Positions 53,419-60,025 of a stretch of DNA of 64,000 nucleotides are shown piece after piece. The first letter of the stretch is position 1; every line of letters begins with the position of its first letter. Both the position numbers and the translations under genes were made by a program. The DNA is from Pelovirga terrestris (GTDB taxonomy: Bacteria; Desulfobacterota; Desulfuromonadia; Desulfuromonadales; Geopsychrobacteraceae), in assembly GCF_014773365.1 (NCBI RefSeq), contig NZ_JACWUN010000013.1:1-64000 (forward strand). The letters run 5' to 3'. The notes beneath the pieces were generated by a model, which saw nothing but the letters and a program-made list of their open reading frames with translations, did no database searches and was not told the origin of the DNA.

Positions 53419-56400
53419 ATGTCTCGGAAAATGGTCAATATCGACGGTAATGCCGCAGCGGCGCATGTTGCTCATGCGACCAATGAGGTGATTGCCATCT
53501 ACCCCATTACCCCGTCATCGGTCATGGGTGAGATCTCCGACGCCAAAAGTGCGGTCGGTGAGAAGAACATCTGGGGCTCCGTTCCCAAGGTGGTTGAGCT
53601 GCAGTCAGAAGGCGGTGCCGCGGGTGCTGTCCATGGTGCGTTGCAGGCCGGTGCGTTGACGACGACCTTTACTGCCTCCCAGGGACTGCTGTTGATGATT
53701 CCCAACATGTTCAAGATTGCCGGTGAATTGACCCCGACCGTCTTTCACGTGTCGGCGCGCGCTATTGCCGCCCAGGCGTTGTCGATTTTTGGCGATCACT
53801 CCGATGTGATGGCTTGTCGTTCCACTGGTTGGGTTCAGTTCTGTTCCAATAACCCTCAGGAAGTCATGGATTTTGCCCTGATCTCCCAGGCAGCGACCCT
53901 TGAGTCACGGGTGCCTTTCCTGCATTTCTTTGATGGCTTCCGTACCTCTCACGAAGTACAAAAAATCGAAGAGCTGACGCTGAATGACATGCGCCACATG
54001 ATTAACGACGATCTTGTCACGGCTCATCGTCAGCGTGCTCTGTCACCGGAGCATCCGAAATTGCGCGGAACCGCACAGAACCCGGATGTTTATTTCCAGG
54101 GACGTGAGACCGTCAATCCCTATTACGAAAAAGTTCCCGCCATCCTCAAGGCCCAGATGGATAAGTTTGCTGCCTTGACCGGCCGTCAGTACAATCTGGT
54201 TGATTATGTCGGGTCGCCCGATGCCGAGCGGATCGTGGTGATGATGGGTTCCGGCTGTGAGGCGATGGAAGAAACCATCAATTACCTGGTCTCTAAAGGG
54301 GAAAAGGTCGGTCTGATCAAGATCCGACTGTTCCTGCCGTTCCCGATTGAGGATTTCTGTAAAGCGATTCCGGCGACCACCAAGAAGATTGCCGTACTTG
54401 ATCGCACCAAAGAGCCGGGTTCCATTGGCGAGCCGCTGTATCAGGCGGTTCGGACGGCCATCGGCGAAGGCATGGTAGAAAAGATGACCAGCTTCTCCGG
54501 TTACCCACCGATTGTTGGTGGCCGTTATGGGTTGGGTTCTTTTGAATTTAATGCCGGTATGTGCAAGGCGGTTCTTGACAATTTACTTGCTGACAAACCG
54601 AAGAACCATTTCATCGTTGGCTTTAAAGATGACGTGCTTGGCAGCAGTCTTGATTTTGACAAGGACTTCCTCGTACCTTTTGATGGTTATGCGGCCATGT
54701 TCTTTGGTCTGGGATCAGACGGCACGGTTGGCGCCAACAAAAACTCGATCAAAATCATCGGTGAATGTACCGACAATAAGGTTCAGGCTTATTTTGTTTA
54801 CGATTCCAAAAAAGCCGGCAGCCTGACCACCTCACACTTGCGTTTCGGCAAAAACGAAATCAAGAGCACTTATCTGATCTCCCAGGCAGACTTTATTGCT
54901 TGTCACAACTTTTCCTTCCTGGAGAAGTACGACATGCTCAAGAGTGCCAAGCAGGGGGCAACCTTCCTGCTCAATGCGCCTTTCGGCAAGGATGAAATCT
55001 GGAACAATTTGCCGCAACTGGTACAACAGCGGATTATCGACAAGAAACTGAAATTTTATGTCATCGACGGCATTCATCTGGGTGAAGAGATCGGCCTCGG
55101 TGCCCGAATCAACGTGATTATGCAAACCGCCTTCTTCAAGATATCCGAGATCATTCCGGTCAATCAGGCGATCAGTCAGATCAAGGCTGCTATTGACAAG
55201 ACTTACGGTAAGGCCGGTGAAAAAGTTGTGGCGATGAACAAACGCGGCGTTGATGCCGCACTCGAACATATTTTTGAAGTTCAGGTGCCGGCTACTGCTG
55301 AAAGTTCTATTAAGATGCACATTGGTCAATGGGGCGACTACTCTGACATAGTGAAAACCACCCTCGGGCCAATTATCGACGGCGTCGGCCACGAGCTGCC
55401 CCTGTCAGCTATGCCGGATGACGGGACTTTCCCCACCGGTACCGCCGCTATTGAGAAGCGGAATATTGCCGTCAATATTCCGGTCTGGGATGAGAGCCTC
55501 TGTATTCAGTGTGGCATCTGCTCTTTTATTTGTCCCCATGCGGCTATTCGTATGAAGATTTACGACGAAAGTGTTCTTGCCGATGCGCCCGCAACGTTCA
55601 AGTCGGTCACTCCCAAAGGCAAGGACATGGAAGGCAAGCGCTATACGCTTCAGGTTGCTCCGGAGGATTGTACCGGCTGTGGCGCCTGTGTTTACAACTG
55701 CCCGGTCAAGAGTAAGGAAGATGAAAAGCACAAGGCGATCAACATGACCTTCCAGGCTCCACTGCGGGTATCGGAAGCTGCCAACTTCAAATTTTTCCTG
55801 GCGTTGCCGGAGACCGATCCTGCTCTGGTCAATCGCAGCACCCTCAAAGGGAGTCAACTGCTGCCGCCCATGTTTGAATTCTCCGGCGCCTGCGCTGGTT
55901 GCGGCGAGACCCCCTTTGTCAAGCTTTGCTCCCAGTTGTTTGGTGATCGGATGTTGGTGGCCAATGCCACAGGATGTTCCTCGATCTATGGTGGCAACCT
56001 GCCGACCACCCCCTGGACCACCCGCAAGGATGGCCTTGGACCAGCATGGAGCAACTCGCTGTTTGAAGATAACGCCGAGTTCGGCTACGGCATGCGACTG
56101 GCGGTTGATAAAAGTACGGAATATGCGCGCGAACTGCTTGAGAGTAACATCTCCTGTGGCTGTGCTGCCTGTAAGGGAACGGCTGATCTCAAGCGCAAGA
56201 TTCTTGACAGTGCCCAGGATACCCAGGAAGAGATTGAACTGCAGCGCGACCGGGTTGCCAAATTGCGGGCGATCCTGGAGAAATGTACCCATGAAACCGC
56301 CAAGCCGCTGCTGGTGAATATTGATTATCTGGTGGTCAAGTCGGTCTGGATTCACGGTGGCGACGGTTGGGCCTATGATATCGGTTACGGTGGTCTGGAT

Positions 56401-57000
56401 CACGTTCTCGCCTCCGGTGAAAATGTCAATGTTCTGGTCCTGGATACAGAAGTTTATTCCAACACCGGCGGTCAGGCATCTAAATCGACACCGCTGGGTG
56501 CCGTGGCTCAGTTTGCCGCCGGTGGCAAGCGCCAGCCGAAAAAGGATCTGGGGATGATAGCTATGTCTTATGGCAATATCTATGTCGCCAAGGTCGCTCT
56601 TTCCAATCCGGCTCAGGTGGTCAAGGCGTTCCTTGAGGCCGATTCCTATGACGGCCCTTCACTGATCATTGCATACAGCCACTGTATTGCTCATGGTATT
56701 GCCATGGACAGTGCGATCGAAGGCTGCAAGGAAGCAGTGGCTTCCGGTCACTGGCCGCTCTTCCGTTTTGATCCGCGTCTGGCCGATCAGGGCAAAAATC
56801 CACTCCAGTTGGACAGCAAAGAGCCGACGATCTCTTTCGAGGACTATGCTCTCAAACAGAACCGGTACCGGGTACTCAAGAAAGTTGCCCCGGAAGCGGC
56901 TCAGGGGCTCATAGAAGATGCCAACAAGATCACTTCCAATCGCTATCGCCTTTACCAGCAGATGGCGGAAATGAGCTACGGCGGCAATGAAGAAAAATAG
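53419..57000 (+). CDS. nifJ: Pyruvate:ferredoxin (flavodoxin) oxidoreductase, single chain
   Basis: 1193 residues with caggagg upstream. All domains of the fused enzyme are present: N-terminal pyrimidine-binding and pyruvate domain (ATNEVIAIYPITPSSVMGEI), γ domain, two 4Fe-4S clusters (CIQCGICSFICPHAAIR and CTGCGACVYNCPVK), and the TPP domain with GDGWAYDIGYGGLDHVLA, plus the proximal-cluster cysteines (GACAGCGETPF, CGCAAC). It interconverts pyruvate + CoA and acetyl-CoA + CO2 with low-potential electrons. Typical of anaerobes. A terminator follows. Confidence 0.96.
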   Translation: MSRKMVNIDGNAAAAHVAHATNEVIAIYPITPSSVMGEISDAKSAVGEKNIWGSVPKVVELQSEGGAAGAVHGALQAGALTTTFTASQGLLLMIPNMFKIAGELTPTVFHVSARAIAAQALSIFGDHSDVMACRSTGWVQFCSNNPQEVMDFALISQAATLESRVPFLHFFDGFRTSHEVQKIEELTLNDMRHMINDDLVTAHRQRALSPEHPKLRGTAQNPDVYFQGRETVNPYYEKVPAILKAQMDKFAALTGRQYNLVDYVGSPDAERIVVMMGSGCEAMEETINYLVSKGEKVGLIKIRLFLPFPIEDFCKAIPATTKKIAVLDRTKEPGSIGEPLYQAVRTAIGEGMVEKMTSFSGYPPIVGGRYGLGSFEFNAGMCKAVLDNLLADKPKNHFIVGFKDDVLGSSLDFDKDFLVPFDGYAAMFFGLGSDGTVGANKNSIKIIGECTDNKVQAYFVYDSKKAGSLTTSHLRFGKNEIKSTYLISQADFIACHNFSFLEKYDMLKSAKQGATFLLNAPFGKDEIWNNLPQLVQQRIIDKKLKFYVIDGIHLGEEIGLGARINVIMQTAFFKISEIIPVNQAISQIKAAIDKTYGKAGEKVVAMNKRGVDAALEHIFEVQVPATAESSIKMHIGQWGDYSDIVKTTLGPIIDGVGHELPLSAMPDDGTFPTGTAAIEKRNIAVNIPVWDESLCIQCGICSFICPHAAIRMKIYDESVLADAPATFKSVTPKGKDMEGKRYTLQVAPEDCTGCGACVYNCPVKSKEDEKHKAINMTFQAPLRVSEAANFKFFLALPETDPALVNRSTLKGSQLLPPMFEFSGACAGCGETPFVKLCSQLFGDRMLVANATGCSSIYGGNLPTTPWTTRKDGLGPAWSNSLFEDNAEFGYGMRLAVDKSTEYARELLESNISCGCAACKGTADLKRKILDSAQDTQEEIELQRDRVAKLRAILEKCTHETAKPLLVNIDYLVVKSVWIHGGDGWAYDIGYGGLDHVLASGENVNVLVLDTEVYSNTGGQASKSTPLGAVAQFAAGGKRQPKKDLGMIAMSYGNIYVAKVALSNPAQVVKAFLEADSYDGPSLIIAYSHCIAHGIAMDSAIEGCKEAVASGHWPLFRFDPRLADQGKNPLQLDSKEPTISFEDYALKQNRYRVLKKVAPEAAQGLIEDANKITSNRYRLYQQMAEMSYGGNEEK

Positions 57001-57028: not shown

Positions 57029-57068
57029 CAGGCCCCTGGTCGTTGATTGCCGGGGGCCTGAGTTTTTT
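57029..57068 (+). terminator. Intrinsic terminator after the pyruvate oxidoreductase gene
   Basis: caggcccc (57029-57036) pairs with ggggcctg (57053-57060), with additional weak pairing inside, followed by ag and six T. It isolates the oxidoreductase transcript from the next unit. Confidence 0.85.
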
Positions 57069-57085: not shown

Positions 57086-57112
57086 TTGACTTCACTATGG
57101 TGCTGTGATAAT
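57086..57112 (+). promoter_or_regulatory. Sigma-70-type promoter of the aminotransferase leader
   Basis: TTGACT (57086-57091) and GATAAT (57107-57112) preceded by TG at 57104-57105 (extended -10). The spacer is 15 bp, short, but the extended -10 compensates. It would start transcription near 57119, ahead of the leader peptide. Confidence 0.45.
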
Positions 57113-57145
57113 CAGGCTCCAGCTTTTTCCAACGAGGGACACCCC

Positions 57146-57223
57146 ATGAACCATCCATCTGCAGCGGCGGCACGAGCGTTGGTGGCGGCAATAATCCGCC
57201 GACAGTCTGTCCATCACCCTTGA
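57146..57223 (+). CDS. Alanine-rich leader peptide (25 residues) of an attenuator
   Basis: ATG 57146 has gaggga 8 nt upstream. The peptide reads Met-Asn-His-Pro-Ser, four Ala, Arg-Ala-Leu-Val-Ala-Ala-Ile-Ile, then RRQSVHHP and stop. Seven of residues 6-15 are... more exactly seven Ala codons lie at 57161-57190 within ten codons. It is followed by alternative RNA pairings and an intrinsic terminator just before an alanine-type aminotransferase gene. This is the arrangement of amino-acid attenuators such as those of ilv and his operons. No other function is likely for so short a peptide. Confidence 0.65.
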   Translation: MNHPSAAAARALVAAIIRRQSVHHP

Positions 57224-57294
57224 ACGGGTGTCGCCGCGCAGGTATGACAAGAATCAACCCGAGGCCATGGACAGATCGTCCGTGGCTTTTTTTC
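57206..57294 (+). terminator. Attenuator: antiterminator versus intrinsic terminator
   Basis: Terminator: gccatgga (57265-57272) with tccgtggc (57280-57287), one G-U pair, followed by seven T. Antiterminator: tctgtccat (57206-57214) is exactly complementary to atggacaga (57268-57276), which includes the terminator's left arm, so only one can form. The antiterminator's left arm lies over the last codons of the leader peptide, so a ribosome that finishes translation would cover it and favour termination. Confidence 0.65.
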
Positions 57295-57316
57295 TTGTGA
57301 TTTCAGGGAGAAAAAA

Positions 57317-58621
57317 ATGCGTAATAACATAGTGCATATCGGCGCCGGTGAGCTGAGCTACGAAATTCGCGCGATTGTCACTATTGCCGAAAAAATGCAG
57401 AAACTCGGCATTAAGACCAACATGGAAAATATCGGTGACCCGATTGCCAAAGGGGAGAAGATTCCCCTATGGATGAAGGAGATTGTTGCTGACCTGGCGA
57501 TGCAGGACTGTTCCTACGGTTATTGTGCCACCAAGGGGTTGCTGGAAACCCGCCAGTTCCTGGCCGATATGACCAACAAGCGCGGCTATGCCCAGATCTG
57601 TGTTGAGGATATCATCTTTTTCAACGGCCTTGGCGATGCTATTCAGAAGGTCTACGGGCTACTTAAGCGCGAAGCCCGGGTGATCGGGCCGTCACCAACC
57701 TATTCCACTCACTCCTCGGCAGAAGGTGCCCATGCCGGACTCAAGCCGGTGACCTATCGTCTGGATCCCGATAATCACTGGTACCCCAACATGGACGATC
57801 TGCGTCAATCGATCAAATACAATCAATCGGTTTCCGGCGTATTGATTATTAATCCTGACAACCCCACCGGAGCCGTTTACCCCGAGCGAATTCTCAAGGA
57901 AATCATCGCCCTGTGTAAAGAGTATGACCTGTTTTTGATCTGTGACGAGATTTATCATAACCTCTGTTATAACGGCATGAATACGCGGCCGATTTCCGAT
58001 CTGATTGGCGATCTGCCGGCTATTGCCATGAAGGGAATCAGCAAGGAGCTGCCCTGGCCCGGCTCGCGTTGTGGCTGGATTGAAGTGTATAATGCTGACA
58101 AGGATGAAACCTTCAAGCGTTATATCGACAGCATTATCAACTCAAAGATGGTTGAAGTTTGTTCCACCACCCTGCCGCAGAAGGCGATCCCAAAGATCCT
58201 GAGCCATCCTGAGTACCCGGTCTATCTGGCGGAGCGGCGGGATCGCTATGAGCACTATTCCAATATCGCCTATGATATGCTTAACGGGGTGCCTGGTCTG
58301 AAGGTCAACCGCACCAATGGCGCTTTCTATATGAGTGTGGTGTTTGAGAGTAATCGGTTGACCAGTACCCAGACCCTGCCGATCAAGAGTCCGGAAGTCA
58401 GGTCGCTGGTCGAACAACTGGTCGCCGCACCGGGAACCCAGACCGATAAGCGCTTCGTCTATTATCTGCTTGGCGCTACCGGGATCTGTGTCGTGCCGAT
58501 TTCTTCTTTCTGCACCGACGAGCGGGGGTTTCGGGTGACCCTGCTGGAGCGTGATGAAAAGGAATTTACCCAGATATTCACGACCCTTGCTGAAGCGATC
58601 AATACCTATCTTGAATCTTGA
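57317..58621 (+). CDS. PLP-dependent class I/II aminotransferase (alanine/aspartate type)
   Basis: 434 residues with cagggag upstream. Fold type I motifs: YGYCATKGLLETRQFLADM, NPDNPTGAVYPERIL (substrate/PLP contact), LICDEIYHNLCY (Asp to PLP N1), and the Schiff-base Lys in GISKELPWPGSRCGW. Closest in pattern to AlaA-like alanine or aspartate aminotransferases; the substrate is not certain. It is the first gene of an operon with gshA, 27 nt apart. Regulation by the upstream alanine-rich leader would fit alanine synthesis. The link with gshA is not explained. Confidence 0.9.
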   Translation: MRNNIVHIGAGELSYEIRAIVTIAEKMQKLGIKTNMENIGDPIAKGEKIPLWMKEIVADLAMQDCSYGYCATKGLLETRQFLADMTNKRGYAQICVEDIIFFNGLGDAIQKVYGLLKREARVIGPSPTYSTHSSAEGAHAGLKPVTYRLDPDNHWYPNMDDLRQSIKYNQSVSGVLIINPDNPTGAVYPERILKEIIALCKEYDLFLICDEIYHNLCYNGMNTRPISDLIGDLPAIAMKGISKELPWPGSRCGWIEVYNADKDETFKRYIDSIINSKMVEVCSTTLPQKAIPKILSHPEYPVYLAERRDRYEHYSNIAYDMLNGVPGLKVNRTNGAFYMSVVFESNRLTSTQTLPIKSPEVRSLVEQLVAAPGTQTDKRFVYYLLGATGICVVPISSFCTDERGFRVTLLERDEKEFTQIFTTLAEAINTYLES

Positions 58622-58648: not shown

Positions 58649-60025
58649 ATGAGTCAACAGAAGGATCAGGCAGTGGTTGGCGCCAGCGATTATATCGAGC
58701 GTCCAGCGCAGTTGGTCGATTTTATTCTGCGCGGAGCGCGTCCGCGCGATGAGTGGGGGATCGGTCTGGAAACCGAAAAGCTGGTGGTCGATCGGACTAC
58801 CGGTGAAGCGGTACCCTATGAGCGCATCCGCGAACTGCTGGCACGTCTTGACGGGATTGGTGGCTGGCAGGGGGTTTATGAAGGGGACAACCTGATCGGT
58901 TTGCAGGGTAAGCGCTCATCGGTGACCCTGGAACCTGGCGGGCAGCTCGAGCTTTCAGGGAAATTCTGCTGCGATATTCACTGCAGCTGGCGTGATCTGA
59001 ATCGCTATCGCCAGCATATTGTTGCGGTTGGAGAGGAGTTGGGACTGCTGTTTCTAGGCCTGGGGACCCATCCTTTTACCCGCCTTGATGCGATCTCCTG
59101 GCTGCCCAAGGGGCGCTACAGAATTATGTCCCAGTATATGCTCAAGACTGGAGATATGGGACAGCGGATGATGAAGCAGACCGCCGGGACCCAGGTCAAT
59201 CTGGATTTCTCCGATGCTGCTGATCTCGCCCGTAAATTGCGTTTGTCCCAGCGCTTAAGTGCGGTAGCCTACGCGCTGTTTGCCAACTCGCCGTTGCTCG
59301 ATGGAGAACCGAGCGGGTTTCTGTCGACCCGCGGGGAGATCTGGTCACGTACGGATAACGATCGTTGCGGCTTGATTGAGGAATTGCTGAGCCCCGCTGC
59401 CGGACTCAATGATTTCGTTGCCTATGCCCTTGATGTCCCCCTCTATTTTATTGAGCGCAACCAGCAGTATGTTGATATGACCACCAGTCGTTTTACCTTT
59501 CGTCAGTTTATTGAGAGTGGCTGGAACGGCGAGGGCGCTACCCTGAAAGACTGGAATTTACACCTGTCGACCCTGTTTCCCGAGGTGCGGCTGCGCCCAC
59601 AGATTGAGGTGCGCAGTGCTGACAGTCTGCCGCCACGTTTTATCCCTGCCGTAGCCGCCCTGTATAAAGGGTTGCTCTATAGCGAAGATGCCTTGCAGGG
59701 AGCTGAGGCGCTGCTGATGGCTCTGTCGCGTGAGGACGTTGTCAGTCTTTACCGACGCTCTTGGCGGGATGGTTTCGCAGCCCGGTATTCAGGCGGAACC
59801 CTGGGCGAAATTATTGCTGCATTGCTCAAGCTGGCGCAAACCAGTCTGCAGCAGCAATTTGCCGCAGCTTACAGTGGAGCCGATGAGAGTCATTTTCTCG
59901 ATCCTCTGCAGGAACTGGTCGCACATCAGGAAACCCTGGCGGAGCGCCTGCTCAAGCGTTGGCCCGCAACCAGGGCAGAACAATTGCAGCTGCTGATTGA
60001 CCATTGCGGTTACCGGGCAAAATAA
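58649..60025 (+). CDS. gshA: Glutamate-cysteine ligase, plant/alphaproteobacterial type
   Basis: 458 residues. Motifs: WGIGLETEKLVVD near the start (metal/ATP-binding Glu residues), GGQLELSG, MKQTAGTQVNLDFSD, EVRSADSLPPRF. It makes γ-glutamylcysteine from Glu, Cys and ATP, the first step to glutathione. No gshB is in the window. The ribosome binding site is weak. Same operon as the aminotransferase. Confidence 0.92.
   Translation: MSQQKDQAVVGASDYIERPAQLVDFILRGARPRDEWGIGLETEKLVVDRTTGEAVPYERIRELLARLDGIGGWQGVYEGDNLIGLQGKRSSVTLEPGGQLELSGKFCCDIHCSWRDLNRYRQHIVAVGEELGLLFLGLGTHPFTRLDAISWLPKGRYRIMSQYMLKTGDMGQRMMKQTAGTQVNLDFSDAADLARKLRLSQRLSAVAYALFANSPLLDGEPSGFLSTRGEIWSRTDNDRCGLIEELLSPAAGLNDFVAYALDVPLYFIERNQQYVDMTTSRFTFRQFIESGWNGEGATLKDWNLHLSTLFPEVRLRPQIEVRSADSLPPRFIPAVAALYKGLLYSEDALQGAEALLMALSREDVVSLYRRSWRDGFAARYSGGTLGEIIAALLKLAQTSLQQQFAAAYSGADESHFLDPLQELVAHQETLAERLLKRWPATRAEQLQLLIDHCGYRAK

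Follow-up and report, generated by a model that had tools for sequence, protein, structure and literature searches.

A conserved alanine-rich leader is predicted to act as a transcription attenuator of an AlaA-like aminotransferase operon in Pelovirga terrestris and related bacteria

The window analysed here, a stretch of 64,000 nucleotides of Pelovirga terrestris DNA (contig NZ_JACWUN010000013.1, positions 1 to 64,000), contains a pyruvate:ferredoxin oxidoreductase gene (53419-57000) ended by a strong terminator (57029-57060), which probably separates that gene from the leader transcript described below. The leader region consists of a short alanine-rich open reading frame (ORF) followed by an intrinsic terminator, behind which lie a class I/II aminotransferase gene and a gshA-like gene, the latter probably co-transcribed with the aminotransferase in the window. 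The features of the locus are as follows.

57086-57112, plus strand: promoter-like sequence TTGACT, 15 nt, GATAAT (extended -10 TGT), read from the sequence
57134-57139, plus strand: Shine-Dalgarno-like GAGGGA of the leader ORF, from the sequence
57146-57223, plus strand: leader peptide ORF MNHPSAAAARALVAAIIRRQSVHHP*, 25 codons, ATG 57146-57148, TGA 57221-57223, from the sequence and codon-level conservation
57161-57190, plus strand: putative regulatory Ala codons, 7 in 10 codons (leader codons 6-15), from the sequence
57173-57175, plus strand: rare but conserved Arg codon (CGA) within the Ala run, from comparison of homologous loci
57178-57203, plus strand: hairpin within the leader that resembles a pause hairpin (arms 57178-57185 and 57196-57203), from the minimum-energy fold
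57206-57214, plus strand: predicted antiterminator strand 2, within the last leader codons, an exact 9-bp complement in duplex analysis
57264-57293, plus strand: intrinsic terminator, GCCATGGAC (57264-57272), loop AGATC, GTCCGTGGC (57278-57286), T7 (57287-57293)
57267-57275, plus strand: predicted antiterminator strand 3, lying in the 5' arm and the loop of the terminator, an exact 9-bp complement
57317-58621, plus strand: class I/II aminotransferase, PRK06855 family, the putative regulated gene, from a curated family and its best solved relative (AlaA chain 4cvq)
58649-60025, plus strand: gshA-like glutamate-cysteine ligase, downstream of the aminotransferase, from a sequence match

A preliminary description of this DNA had reported a 25-codon ORF with a ribosome binding site and seven alanine codons in ten, and all of these were found to be present. 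No small ORF of the region reached at least 7 Ala in 10 codons in any of 5000 dinucleotide shuffles, and at least 5 in 10 was reached in 28 of 5000. Scoring of both window strands gave 37 terminator-like sites, and the leader's was the only one preceded by a small ORF with at least 5 Ala in 10 codons. The promoter-like sequence of the window, with its N15 spacer, was missed by the 16-18 nt spacing rule of the scanner; under that rule the window scored 8, and a score of at least 9 out of 12 was reached in 45 of 116 leaders versus 13% of shuffles. A Shine-Dalgarno-like 4-mer was found upstream of the leader ORF in 75 of the 116 leaders. In the window, the Ala run (57157-57173) can also pair strongly with sequence past the leader stop (57228-57246; z -2.4), and this is possibly a superattenuation helix. 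A 'protector' helix of this kind was detected (p<=0.05) in 9/32 loci of family f1 and in 1/84 elsewhere and, as it is not general beyond the window, was kept out of the mechanism.

The T-tailed terminator reported shortly before the gene is likewise in place, ending 23 nt from the aminotransferase ATG at 57317, and was also called by the scanner (stem 57261-57289). Its 5' arm and loop can form a second, mutually exclusive pairing with the leader. An exact 9-bp pairing of this kind had been claimed and exists, with its upstream strand inside the ORF and overlapping the final leader codons as described, but its partner is 57267-57275 and not 57268-57276. An exact complement of at least 9 nt to the terminator arm was obtained in 20 of 5000 dinucleotide shuffles.

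The best solved relative of the aminotransferase was the chain named glutamate-pyruvate aminotransferase AlaA (4cvq, E 5.9e-44), with the putative transaminase 1xi9 a close second, and its second-best curated family was alanine aminotransferase at a score under the cut-off (179.9 of 534 bits). The best named match, 99% identical, came from Desulfuromonadales MAG KA08. As the same genome encodes an alanine dehydrogenase and, besides the present gene, eight matches to the class I/II aminotransferase family, the AlaA-like enzyme need not be the sole route to alanine. The aminotransferase-gshA operon that had been proposed is probable for the window, where gshA follows, but is not constant elsewhere, with gshA after the aminotransferase in 73 of the 107 loci with enough sequence. 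Since Ala leaders were found also at loci where gshA is missing, gshA was rejected as the regulated function. A pyruvate:ferredoxin oxidoreductase gene lies upstream of the aminotransferase in only 12 of 112 loci.

The order was represented by 136 genomes, 118 of which had an ortholog of the aminotransferase, and these gave a set of 116 loci after three genomes without a gene start in the match were left out and with one genome contributing two loci. Under a fixed rule (a small ORF with at least 5 Ala in 10 codons, ending no more than 90 nt from a terminator), the Ala leader and terminator were present in 98 of the 112 usable order loci, and four more loci had 4 Ala. The other 10 comprised nine loci of family f7 (eight of genus g23, plus L082) and L074, which has an Ala-rich ORF and no terminator meeting the rule. 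Reading of the 300 nt before the gene in the nine f7 loci revealed no Ala leader, with L082 retaining an unrelated terminator-like hairpin. In eight loci of one f7 genus (L038, L042, L047, L048, L050, L057, L064 and L117), a promoter-like sequence TTGAC...TATG(C/T)TAACC lies near the gene without an Ala leader, and these loci look as if the attenuator had been lost. Two loci of genus g3 (L012 and L237) share an extra inverted repeat, CAGG..TTGACATAC..GTATGTC..CCTG, between terminator and gene, which may represent an additional promoter or operator.

In the rest of the class, the same rule found the architecture in 5/7 first loci and in 48/70 further loci, a set that includes four repeat loci from the earlier sets; the remaining 22 of these 70 include six with 4 Ala and one (L268) with only 121 nt upstream. 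Two orthologous loci without an Ala leader (L120 and L307, class genus g54) have in common a reading-frame end, GWLRWRDEDGRLTIG, just before the gene, which is perhaps the end of another upstream gene. The architecture extends over two large bacterial lineages allied to Geobacter and Desulfuromonas. Among 33 other loci of the phylum (taken from 51 phylum matches), it was absent from 28 and present in five (L132, L146, L152, L153 and L154), where an Ala-rich leader and a terminator precede the aminotransferase; in L146, two terminator-like hairpins follow one another. Of the named loci, which overlap with the order, class and phylum sets, 80 were collected and 36 of the 77 usable ones displayed the architecture, including those of Desulfuromusa kysingii DSM 7343 (L162) and Geotalea sp. 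SG265 (L232). Under the fixed rule it was found in 0 of 23 loci titled Desulfobulbaceae, Desulfobulbus, Desulfobulbales, Desulfocapsa(ceae), Desulfurivibrio, Desulfoprunum or Desulfobia, titles which we presume to denote Desulfobulbales-type taxa. In 20 relatives, no Ala-rich ORF was seen before alaS among small ORFs within 400 nt (maximum 4 Ala in 10 codons). As the loci were collected via the aminotransferase, and other gene associations were surveyed for alaS only, these counts leave room for leaders in front of other genes.

This arrangement would allow a simple switch, for which we infer leader translation, ribosome stalling, the alanine signal and the product of the enzyme. With ample Ala-tRNA, the ribosome would reach the leader stop codon and mask strand 2 in the leader tail, so that the terminator hairpin would form and transcription would halt before the gene. 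With scarce Ala-tRNA, the ribosome would stall in the Ala run and leave strand 2 free to pair with the 5' arm of the terminator (strand 3), so that no terminator would form. Antitermination would then permit transcription of the AlaA-like aminotransferase (and of gshA where present) and the formation of alanine from pyruvate.

In the alignment of related leaders that the preliminary description had suggested, the Ala codons were kept and base changes in them were mostly synonymous in order and class loci. Across eight groups, where single-base differences touched an Ala codon, Ala was kept in 684 of 714 pairwise codon comparisons, pairs that are not independent, compared with about one third expected at random (80/90 in f1, 74/87 in f3 and 475/477 in the other class loci). 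This analysis took all columns in the seven codons after the CGA-Ala anchor, whether Ala or not, from leaders that had to contain CGAGC and, within 18 codons, 5 Ala; in another codon analysis the columns were picked for Ala, so that codon positions 1 and 2 necessarily appear invariant. Within family f1, GCA and GCG are the only codons between which the core Ala columns vary. These two codons make up 67% of Ala codons in the leaders versus 28% in the gene (98% versus 35% in f1), a bias that would fit codons read by one tRNA-Ala isoacceptor. Among the 98 Ala-leader loci, Arg reached at least 5 in 10 codons in 9% and every other residue in no more than 2%, the loci having been preselected for at least 5 Ala, so that the 100% for Ala is uninformative by itself; the shuffles of the window region and the counts over loci not selected for Ala are the informative tests of alanine enrichment. 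Sensing of several amino acids (Ile/Leu/Val) was rejected because Ala alone is concentrated in the leaders.

A second conserved element lies inside the Ala run or just ahead of it. The Arg of the Arg-Ala core is encoded by CGA in 130 of the 137 loci with this core (228 loci scanned, including a few repeats), and CGA accounts for 124 of 2826 Arg codons (4%) in the adjacent aminotransferase genes. At the nucleotide level CGAGC is nearly invariant in the leaders, and the Ala codon that follows CGA is GCC in only 2/137, although the gene uses GCC more than any other Ala codon. CGA-GC was also found in three (L132, L146 and L154) of the six outlier loci examined, and a hairpin follows shortly after the conserved CGA in 108/135 loci versus 32% of shuffles, although in most loci the leader region taken as a whole hardly exceeds shuffles in folding strength (median z -0.6). 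We tentatively consider, at less than even odds, that CGA or CGAGC may be a second built-in signal besides the Ala codons, either a programmed slow step or an RNA element, by which ribosome and polymerase would be kept in step or the gain of the alanine response would be set; such a signal, if true, would be a design outside the textbook attenuator.

The nearly invariant CGA could also be a general slow point, and this bears on the possibility that the leader is a general sensor of ribosome stalling, of the type of antibiotic-inducible leaders or the whiB7 upstream ORF (uORF), in which the switch would report translation stress and the Ala codons would be one of many routes to a stall. The whiB7 uORF attenuator shares the logic of the present leader and is linked to alanine starvation in the available portions of the sources cited below. 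A general sensor appears improbable to us, however, as no amino acid besides Ala is concentrated in the 98 Ala-leader loci (chosen for Ala) and the downstream enzyme is AlaA-like rather than the product of a resistance or stress gene. Arrest peptides of the RAPP/RAGP type have Arg-Ala followed by Pro or Gly-Pro. The aligned leaders do not fit this motif, as I, F, L, M, N or T comes after Arg-Ala in most of them.

The two alternative RNA pairings were also compared across lineages. In 54 sister-lineage sequences, 94.6% of the cells of the terminator stem were paired and 9 of its 12 pairs showed double changes, a covariation that is partly by construction because the rows were chosen for having the hairpin. 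The antiterminator was paired in 74.5% of cells of the same set, compared with 29-49% when slid. Column covariation of the antiterminator was weak, its 6 double-change pairs being equalled or exceeded in 188 of 500 shuffles (10 of 500 for the covariation score), and by most measures it did not exceed that of shuffles. As duplex tests at single loci were just moderately convincing (p<=0.05 in 66/116 loci), we used permutation between lineages. With 43 hand-picked lineage representatives, the energy of each tail with its own strand 3 was -20.85 versus -17.60 (sd 0.40) for permuted partners, and 0 of 20000 permutations were as low. Of the covariation in both alternative stems that had been put forward as support, that of the terminator was observed, and the antiterminator is supported by the fit of own tails, with weak covariation in its columns. 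The median position of strand 2, counted from the end of the leader stop codon, is -24 to -6 nt, where a terminating ribosome would cover it.

The folding data were also weighed against a structured RNA without a translated leader (a riboswitch, a T-box or a protein-binding RNA), in which the GCN repeats would serve folding. The window leader does fold strongly (z -3.25) and CGAGC is conserved as nucleotides. The base changes in Ala codons, though, are overwhelmingly synonymous, and leader length and tail differ by lineage while start, stop and Ala run stay constant. A search against Rfam gave 9 matches with E no higher than 5 (best E 0.14), and no match to a T-box or any other family attained its gathering score. 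We regard such an RNA as very improbable. A constitutive early terminator or small-RNA gene with an incidental Ala ORF is hardly credible, for the terminator is indeed strong and widespread but neither a tail matched to its own terminator arm nor codon-phased conservation would be expected of it.

Marks of an attenuator found here are a short leader ORF with a ribosome binding site, alanine enrichment conserved as codons, a terminator between leader and gene, and a leader-tail antiterminator, the last resting on the 9 bp of the window and the permutation over 43 lineage representatives. A pause hairpin and agreement between the control codons and the product of the enzyme may be further marks. 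The amino-acid attenuation logic of the preliminary description is thus supported by the codon conservation, the terminator and the own-tail fit in relatives, and we give a probability of roughly 0.92 to the reading that the leader is a ribosome-mediated, alanine-specific transcription attenuator of the AlaA-like aminotransferase operon. As a conserved Ala leader and a switchable stop precede a probable alanine-making enzyme, cells most likely turn this enzyme on when alanine is short. The control of alanine biosynthesis is poorly understood compared with that of other amino acids, and a simple regulatory circuit for alanine is predicted here. Because the control codons name the likely product, the leader also suggests a functional assignment for an aminotransferase family that has so far had a generic name only. 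The spread of the element across two large lineages suggests that it is old.

Several known systems resemble this leader in part. Ala T-box riboswitches switch transcription on alanine or tRNA-Ala starvation through binding of the tRNA by the RNA; the predicted response is alike, but no T-box match at the gathering score was found here. The aspC motif SRC-45-1 likewise precedes a gene for a putative aminotransferase, directly at its start codon, and is presented in the available part of its source as a three-stem junction riboswitch candidate without a uORF (PMC11109978), so that it is set apart from the Ala leader by description and not by sequence. The whiB7/wblC uORF attenuator of Actinobacteria, tied to alanine starvation and the alanine biosynthesis gene aspC in the portions available of PMC10727445 and PMC13236596, likewise combines a uORF, a terminator and an antiterminator. 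It controls a transcription factor and answers antibiotics and other stalls, whereas here Ala-dominated codons precede the enzyme gene itself, and the gene after the leader encodes an aminotransferase and no WhiB factor. In Streptomyces lividans TK24, alaL before alaS encodes 6 Ala in 22 residues and is a predicted alanine-dependent attenuator, termed previously undescribed by its authors (PMC8079986, from the accessible text). The two share an Ala leader peptide and predicted alanine attenuation; the S. lividans leader, an RNA-seq-based prediction from one genome of an actinobacterium, controls alanyl-tRNA synthetase, while the gene downstream here is an aminotransferase.

The preliminary description knew of no alanine-specific attenuation. 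As far as the accessible parts of these sources go, alaL-alaS and the whiB7 uORF are two partial precedents, while for a biosynthetic enzyme none was found. In the open-access literature searched, where most matches took the form of listings, no alanine leader was described for Geobacter, for Desulfuromonadales or before an alanine biosynthetic enzyme. Attenuators for His, Leu, Thr and Trp are in Rfam, those for Ile/Val and Phe are also described, and Ala is not named in the available part of that source (PMC3766115); a Cys attenuator before cysS is described in the accessible part of another (PMC8632094). Judged by its sequence, the leader works like a classical attenuator, the alanine response itself being predicted. 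It resembles the trp, his, leu, ilv, thr and phe attenuators of Proteobacteria in its short control-codon ORF, terminator and leader-tail antiterminator, and differs from them in its Ala control codons and its aminotransferase target, so that alanine would become a further amino acid with its own leader-peptide attenuator before a probable biosynthetic enzyme.
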